Assembly: GCA_037951105.1 (NCBI GenBank)
Contig: JBAMJV010010090.1
Location: 62,001-126,000 of the forward strand
DNA from: Echinarachnius parma
Lineage: Eukaryota; Echinodermata; Echinoidea; Clypeasteroida; Echinarachniidae
Reading direction: 5' to 3'
Length of the DNA: 64,000 nucleotides
A program made the position numbers and the translations under genes. The notes beneath the pieces were generated by a model. That model saw only the letters and a program-made list of their open reading frames with translations, was not told the DNA's origin and searched no databases. Within the stretch, counting starts at the first letter, position 1; each line of letters starts with the position of its first letter. This document shows positions 9,341-40,686 of the stretch, piece after piece.

Positions 9341-9406
9341 TCACTTCCAGGTGAATGAGAGGGCCTGGTTGAAAGGCACAGGTGTGGCACATGTGAAGTT
9401 CAATCT
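9341..9406 (-). CDS. GAA: GAA last coding exon and stop
   Basis: A poly-pyrimidine tract and TTTTACAG lead into [21 protein letters not shown] and TGA (21 codons plus stop). Phase 0 agrees with the preceding exon. LSFTWK matches the end of human GAA (FLVSWC). An AATAAA on the minus strand at 9264-9269 could serve as poly(A) signal. The exon is too short to be recognised except by phase and family end. Confidence 0.82.
   Translation of the reverse strand, partial: RLNFTCATPVPFNQALSFTWK

Positions 9407-40686: not shown

Follow-up and report, generated by a model that had tools for sequence, protein, structure and literature searches.

Partial, same-strand exon copies accompany most exons of a GAA gene in an echinoid

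Introduction

Exon-derived copies within the introns of their own gene, including partial and degenerate ones, have been catalogued in many genomes (PMC12343006, PMC9013439). In the available text of the Exonize study, genes with partial, inter-boundary or intronic events outnumber those with full-exon events (PMC12343006), and same-gene homologues at ≥80% identity are given for ~2% of human, 0.08% of fly and 0.06% of worm exonic nucleotides, as genome-wide averages over coding and UTR exons (PMC12343006, PMC9013439). Proximal duplicates in the human genome were attributed to repair-mediated capture by Pace et al. 2009 (PMC2671141); pairs within 50 bp were excluded from that set, and the text available names two complete and two partial exons among 824 human donors. 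Introns have been described as arising where coding sequence that holds proto-splice sites is duplicated in tandem (PMC2891723). In the purple sea urchin, the Sp185/333 (SpTransformer) immune cluster consists of whole genes duplicated in 4.5-kb units, and gene fragments are not reported in the accessible part of that account (PMC3091723).

Because partial exon duplicates, repair duplicates and urchin tandem duplication have already been described, the kind of phenomenon reported here is known, and an original prediction that no described genome has a gene so densely peppered with exon fragments does not hold as worded. What stands out in the echinoid GAA gene analyzed here is the density of copies in one gene and a preference for exons. 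Among the top results of a literature search, no recognised account of exon fragments spread across an echinoid gene was found, which leaves absence unproven.

Materials and methods

Each GAA exon was aligned (Smith-Waterman) to its surroundings up to 5 kb away, with short-period repeats masked. Reversed/complemented sequence served as the null (99th percentile of scores 19, maximum 21). The same alignment test was applied to RABGEF1 exons, and random non-exonic segments of the gene were scored against the same null. The predicted GAA protein was compared with the best 120 of 1490 protein matches. For the conserved segment described below, a strict motif search placed it in 64/120 homologues; an alignment search, which placed it in 117/120 listed homologues, was used instead.

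Results

The locus and the GAA gene

The window (the whole 64-kb stretch of DNA that was analyzed) has 38.5% G+C, and both its composition and the genes it contains fit an animal genome. A PALB2-like sequence lies to the left of GAA and RABGEF1 exons lie to its right; the PALB2-like sequence matched the PALB2_WD40 profile at 22.4 bits, below the Pfam cut-off of 27. Joined from minus-strand exons, the GAA protein showed 59% identity to Lytechinus pictus and 58% to Diadema antillarum. Among the best 120 of 1490 matches, the highest identities were to sea-urchin lysosomal alpha-glucosidases and the best match by score was a stick-insect protein (45% identity). Taken separately, the ten exons that bear copies were 69–70% identical to L. 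pictus and D. antillarum and 55–60% identical to two sea cucumbers and two sea stars.

GAA was resolved into 16 exons, all on the minus strand, of which 14 have both an AG acceptor and a GT donor. The first, E2 (40045–40707, start codon at 40686, trefoil domain), has a donor only, and the terminal exon E18 (9341–9406), which carries the stop codon, has its acceptor once its start is set at 9406 and not 9409. Intact exons with copies are E3 (34653–34792), E4 (33440–33608), E6 (28285–28523), E7 (27470–27601), E8 (25658–25768), E9 (23340–23453), E11 (21181–21298), E12 (19904–20037), E13 (14930–15081) and E16 (12673–12889). The remaining exons are E5 (30656–30752), E10 (22340–22427), E14 (14007–14124) and E17 (11914–12116).

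Several repeats were observed in the window. A family of elements of up to ~400 bp has eight members, which lie in either orientation and always in GAA introns (9440–33430), and at the self-comparison threshold used it was found nowhere else in the 64 kb. A 156-bp satellite of eight units at ~97% identity occupies 31843–33097, in the intron between E5 and E4. An inverted pair of ~1.3 kb (45319–46615 and 56838–58146, 98.4% identity) has a 219-bp tandem repeat inside each member. Long CAG/CAA-like and GGT arrays lie at 23599–24214 and 41994–42290, and foldback (self-inverted) elements of up to ~0.75 kb are numerous (e.g., 1402–1727, 19394–19887, 38395–38972 and 49075–49642).

A conserved segment is missing between E14 and E16

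The GAA reading frame is open from E2 to E13 and from E16 to the stop, and broken between E14 and E16. Exons joined as annotated contain five stops; without E14, the terminal stop alone remains. Homology of E14 ends mid-exon at 14029 and is followed by a non-homologous end, so that E14 as seen consists of an acceptor and the exon's first part, the same shape as the truncated copies described below. Where exon 14 should continue and exon 15 should lie (13881–14028, minus strand) the conserved coding segment, whose absence had not been noted originally, is missing: in an alignment search, a 63-residue Lytechinus test segment found no convincing counterpart in the window (best E 0.31), and a neighbouring segment of equal length matched at E 1e-26. 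Since the segment is absent and E14–E16 are out of frame, the assembled gene is either broken or misassembled at this point, and this part has been lost either from the gene itself or from the assembly. The complete open coding sequence expected of a functional GAA is not found in the assembled sequence, contrary to the original reading of the gene as intact.

Ten of sixteen exons have partial copies on the same strand

Same-strand partial copies were found for E3, E4, E6, E7, E8, E9, E11, E12, E13 and E16 (10/16 exons). There are 21 copies in total, with scores of 25–144 and a best score per exon of 42–144; the lowest-scoring copy is a 37-nt fragment of E9 (score 25). Eleven exons had been predicted to have copies. 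Ten of these (numbers 2, 3, 5, 6, 7, 8, 10, 11, 12 and 14 in the original count) should, by order, correspond to the ten found here, and the eleventh, its exon 15 (E17), was not confirmed, the best match scoring 17, below the null. In the search to 5 kb no copy above null was detected for E2, E5, E10, E14, E17 or E18, and inverted copies above null were detected for 0/16 exons. Candidate copies of inverted or transposon-borne type were rejected on this last result. All 21 copies lie on the strand of their exon, 15 within 500 bp and 19 within 1 kb of it, as predicted (same strand, mostly within a few hundred bases); the two E13 copies are ~3.8–4.0 kb off. Six exons have at least two extra copies, E16 having the most (five), and copied DNA in the gene amounts to 1711 nt per 2765 exon nt (62%).

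Upstream of E3, copy 1 (34813–34880) holds the acceptor AG and the first 48 nt but no donor, and forms a 68-bp unit head-to-tail with the exon; copy 2 (34881–34935) is the next upstream unit of the 68-bp repeat, and copy 3, at 35353–35462, also includes a portion of another unit. E4 has one copy with the acceptor and first 100 nt (33685–33850) and a longer one with the acceptor and 157 aligned exon nt (34042–34268), both lacking a donor. The single E6 copy (28145–28207, downstream) comprises 63 internal exon nt and no splice site. Downstream of E7, a copy at 26678–26755 holds the last 56 nt and the donor GT, with no acceptor. The E8 copy (25961–26078, upstream) has the acceptor and 88 nt, no donor and one frameshifting gap. 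An array downstream of E9 (22779–23265) consists of the 37-nt fragment and two 3'-part copies with one stop each; the fragment and one of the copies retain the donor GT, and (CAAA)n lies between the two copies. Upstream of E11, a copy of the first 87 nt (21429–21549) has lost the acceptor AG and has no donor. Two E12 copies (20106–20448) stand head-to-tail upstream of the exon, with acceptors kept, donors lost and one stop each. Two E13 copies (18923–19192), ~4 kb upstream, hold the first 83–86 nt with AG kept and the donor lost. Five E16 copies form a 190-bp tandem array upstream (12956–13880), each with the acceptor and 118–122 aligned nt and without the donor; three of the five contain stops and four contain frameshifting gaps. 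All of these copies are on the minus strand.

Outside GAA, the PALB2 terminal-exon ORF (3863–4111) has at least six partial copies of 64–143 aligned nt each, on both sides of it in a ~153-bp tandem array (3595–4777, plus strand), as had been predicted; with a shorter query (3863–4000) no copies were found, the full ORF being needed to detect them. Copies had also been predicted for RABGEF1 exon 4, for which the same alignment test returned nothing scoring above 14. Three further RABGEF1 exons had no match scoring above 19. The orphan exon for which copies had likewise been predicted was not located.

Most copies span one exon border, and none retains both splice sites

Sixteen copies lie upstream of their own exon and five downstream. 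Every upstream copy (16/16) consists of the 5' part of the exon without a donor, and in 15/16 an AG is kept right at the start of the exon. For E7 and E9, downstream copies (fragment counted) consist of the 3' part without an acceptor in 4/4 cases and keep GT in 3/4; the E6 copy, being internal, is uninformative on geometry. Each copy has thus lost at least one splice site. Mutually exclusive or otherwise functional duplicated exons would have both sites and an open frame; 0/21 copies have both sites, and 0/21 are whole-exon copies. Tandem duplication of a unit that crosses a single exon border yields this geometry.

Units abut or nearly abut head-to-tail at five of the ten exons (E3, E4, E9, E12 and E16), and copies are spaced at the other five (E6, E7, E8, E11 and E13; gaps of ~80 bp to 4 kb). 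Intron flank lies clearly within the copies of E3, E4, E7, E8, E9, E12 and E16 (for E16, two of the five copies were aligned), with intron-flank identities inside units of, for example, 64/68, 57/66 and 65/73; the flank is weak or short at E11 and E13, and the E6 copy is exon-only. With intron flank at seven exons and a splice site inside most duplicated units, the predicted retention of splice sites and flanking intron, and an origin at the DNA level, were upheld. Upstream of the two E13 copies lies a common flank, which past ~12 bases departs from that of the true exon; the intron beside the true E13 may have been replaced.

Copies decay and exons remain constrained

In 20 copies (the 37-nt E9 fragment excluded), mismatches to the exon at codon positions 1, 2 and 3 numbered 52/626, 38/628 and 101/616 (8.3, 6.1 and 16.4%), and the same copies carry seven stops and ten frameshifting gaps. 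Where 15 homologues decided a residue difference, they favored the exon in 58 cases and the copy in 19 (58/77). Pooled in this way, stops, frameshifts, the codon-position pattern and residue preference indicate that copies drift and that exons have been held by selection, until recently at least: the copies are without coding constraint and the exons are constrained. Individual exons vary. At E9 homologues favor the copies over the exon (4 vs 3 and 4 vs 1), and at E11 the preference is even. Divergence between copy and exon reaches 17–23% at E12 and E13. The longer E4 copy matches 153/157 exon nt; its gap of 3 nt leaves the frame intact, and of its changes three are synonymous and one is non-synonymous. 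At E3 all three copies are almost the same as the exon, do not differ from it over aligned codons, and are too alike for constraint to be judged. The predicted scattered substitutions are therefore seen generally, along with stops and frameshifts, but not in E3.

Exons are over-represented among duplication events

Duplication in the gene is not strictly exon-specific. Same-strand matches above null were found for 192/480 random non-exonic gene segments vs 10/16 exons, and inverted matches for 96/480 segments. This raw control gave no clear difference between exons and introns before repeat families and exon copies were set aside; the 192 matches comprise 73 exon copies, 53 members of one dispersed repeat family, 19 matches to the 156-bp satellite, 32 unlabelled matches (scores ≤38) and 15 others. 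Same-strand pairs without a GAA exon or exon copy cover 4191/23456 masked intron bases, and same-strand pairs in the flanks cover 1885/9054 bases (left, PALB2 array included) and 2354/21967 bases (11–21%). With copies of 923/2765 exon bases, exons show a roughly two-fold excess over introns by bases.

By event count exons are over-represented. With repeat families included, 10/18 events are exonic vs 2.4 expected from random placement in the gene (P 2.5e-5). Without transposon-like families, 10/12 are exonic vs 1.4–2.0 expected, and ten was reached in 0/400,000 and 0/20,000 draws; a reduced set without E3, E4, E6 and E7 gave 6/14 vs 2.0 expected (P 0.009). These counts are to be read with the intron event list, unit lengths and repeat intervals set by hand, and with the gene picked because its copies had already been noticed. 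On the original caution that introns may be duplicating just as often, introns do frequently hold local copies, and exons exceed their share of events. Simulated intron pairs were detected in 88% of cases at 1.54 times the observed divergence, the value that fits the codon-position pattern, and in 69% at twice the observed divergence. G+C is 51% in exons and 37.5% in unique intron; higher exon G+C is one possible cause of the preference.

Discussion

The copies around GAA exons share with tandem exon duplications (PMC12343006, PMC9013439) that they are exon-derived, lie in introns of their own gene on the same strand, clearly include intron flank at seven exons and, as a pooled set, are without constraint. 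The density of 62% in GAA is far above the averages given in the available text of those studies, a comparison made across different aligners and with a gene picked for its copies. Relative to the human set in the text available from PMC2671141, size is similar, copies lie ≤5 kb from their source and splice sites are among the duplicated sequences; GAA copies differ in being often contiguous, in having one orientation and in affecting most exons. Duplication that touches splice signals is also a feature of intron gain as far as PMC2891723 describes it, but the existing introns of GAA absorb half-exons and no new intron was seen. With the Sp185/333 cluster, so far as the account in PMC3091723 extends, GAA shares tandem duplication in an urchin, with microsatellite borders there and (CAAA)n between E9 copies here; single-exon fragments are duplicated in GAA and whole genes in Sp185/333.

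We consider it likely that this pattern arose by repeated head-to-tail duplication across exon-intron borders, with the resulting half-exons tolerated as they are not spliced in. Short stretches of DNA (~60–400 bp) would have been duplicated head to tail in the gene again and again. A unit that crosses one exon-intron border would leave a half-exon with one splice site beside the intact exon, upstream if the unit held the acceptor and downstream if it held the donor. Because the spliceosome should not take a half-exon as an exon, the half-exon probably goes unrecognized and the duplication would be tolerated; whole-exon or within-exon duplications are presumably purged by selection. Some pairs may then have grown into arrays of 3–6 units by slippage or unequal exchange, as the arrays at E3, E4, E9, E12 and E16 suggest. 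Subsequently the copies would decay and the exons stay under protein-level constraint, as seen in the pooled set. A tandem origin is supported by the placement of 21/21 copies on the coding strand and none inverted, and by intron-only tandem arrays of like size (e.g., 156 bp x 8 at 31843–33097). Against it, the spaced copies at E6, E7, E8, E11 and E13 can be accommodated only with later insertion or loss between copies, and the flanks of the E13 copies and the better homologue fit of the E9 copies run counter to a simple scheme. The lack of whole-exon copies is predicted by a selection filter, yet is not very surprising by chance with few events, and such a filter alone leaves the lower count of intron-only events unexplained.

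The apparent preference for exons could be spurious if duplications occur everywhere and constraint keeps exon-copy pairs recognizable for longer. Only one member of such a pair decays freely, as the codon-position pattern indicates, and local matches are frequent in intron segments, in intron-only pairs and in the flanks. However, most of the 192 segment matches trace to exon copies (73), the dispersed family (53) or the satellite (19), the unlabelled 32 score low, simulated intron pairs remain largely detectable at both divergences tried, and the exonic excess persists in the full and reduced event counts, with the reservation that the gene was picked post hoc. We therefore regard the absence of any true exon preference as rather unlikely; longer recognizability as the whole source of the bias was not borne out by the power simulation, which leaves the excess standing. 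Quite unlikely, in our estimate, is an origin by repair, in which double-strand breaks in introns were patched with nearby DNA by synthesis-dependent strand annealing and the spaced copies are the insertions. In size and distance the copies agree with the human set (a median of 147 bp for proximal duplicates at <5 kb, in the available text of PMC2671141): donors lie within 5 kb, the search itself being limited to 5 kb, and sizes are no more than ~600 bp. Spaced copies at five exons would also fit, but at the other five the arrays run head-to-tail with little or no gap between units, all copies have a single orientation, and the four informative spaced cases (E7, E8, E11 and E13) all follow the tandem rule of 5' parts upstream and 3' parts downstream.

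An assembly artefact, in which a heterozygous animal's two divergent haplotypes were joined one after the other at conserved exons, would itself give exon bias. The longer E4 copy is allele-like, the E3 copies are nearly identical to their exon, the missing exon 14–15 segment points to a fault at one place in the gene, whether biological or of assembly, and the available text of PMC3091723 mentions collapse and artificial duplication among the difficulties at a repeat-rich urchin locus. Two haplotypes do not allow two or more extra copies at six exons, or five at E16; the seven stops and ten frameshifting gaps are unlike functional alleles, and divergence reaches 17–23% at E12 and E13. We judge this explanation very unlikely, and as a general cause it was rejected on the stops, the frameshifts and the up to five extra copies; with the codon-position pattern, these also bear out the original view that the copies are, in general, not fresh assembly duplicates. 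That the copies serve as functional alternative or decoy exons is highly improbable: AG is kept in 15/16 upstream copies and GT in 3/4 E7/E9 downstream copies, but by estimate roughly this many sites would survive slow neutral decay, both splice sites are present in 0/21 copies, stops or frameshifts occur in several, and there is loss of conserved residues. Dispersed and foldback repeats abound in the window and might favor retrocopies or gene fragments captured by transposons, but copies of seven exons contain intron flank, and all share one orientation and lie in their own gene, 19/21 within 1 kb. The chance of such an origin is close to nil; for copies with intron flank retrocopying is refuted, as they are neither intron-free nor dispersed as retrocopies would be.

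Should the density found in GAA hold genome-wide, it would document in nature which tandem duplications pass the filter of splicing, and many half-exons whose geometry and age are known could then be used to measure exon definition and rates of duplication in natural genomes. Urchin gene annotation and assembly would call for caution as well, because a half-exon that has a good acceptor and an open frame can be mistaken for a real exon and one conserved GAA coding segment is missing here. An unlikely but broader reading, offered as speculation, is that in echinoid genes, or a subset of them, local duplication prefers exon-intron borders and half-exons seed minisatellites, so that most exons may come to lie among splice-incompetent shadows; recombination between shadows may in turn delete exons, as perhaps happened to exon 14–15 of GAA.
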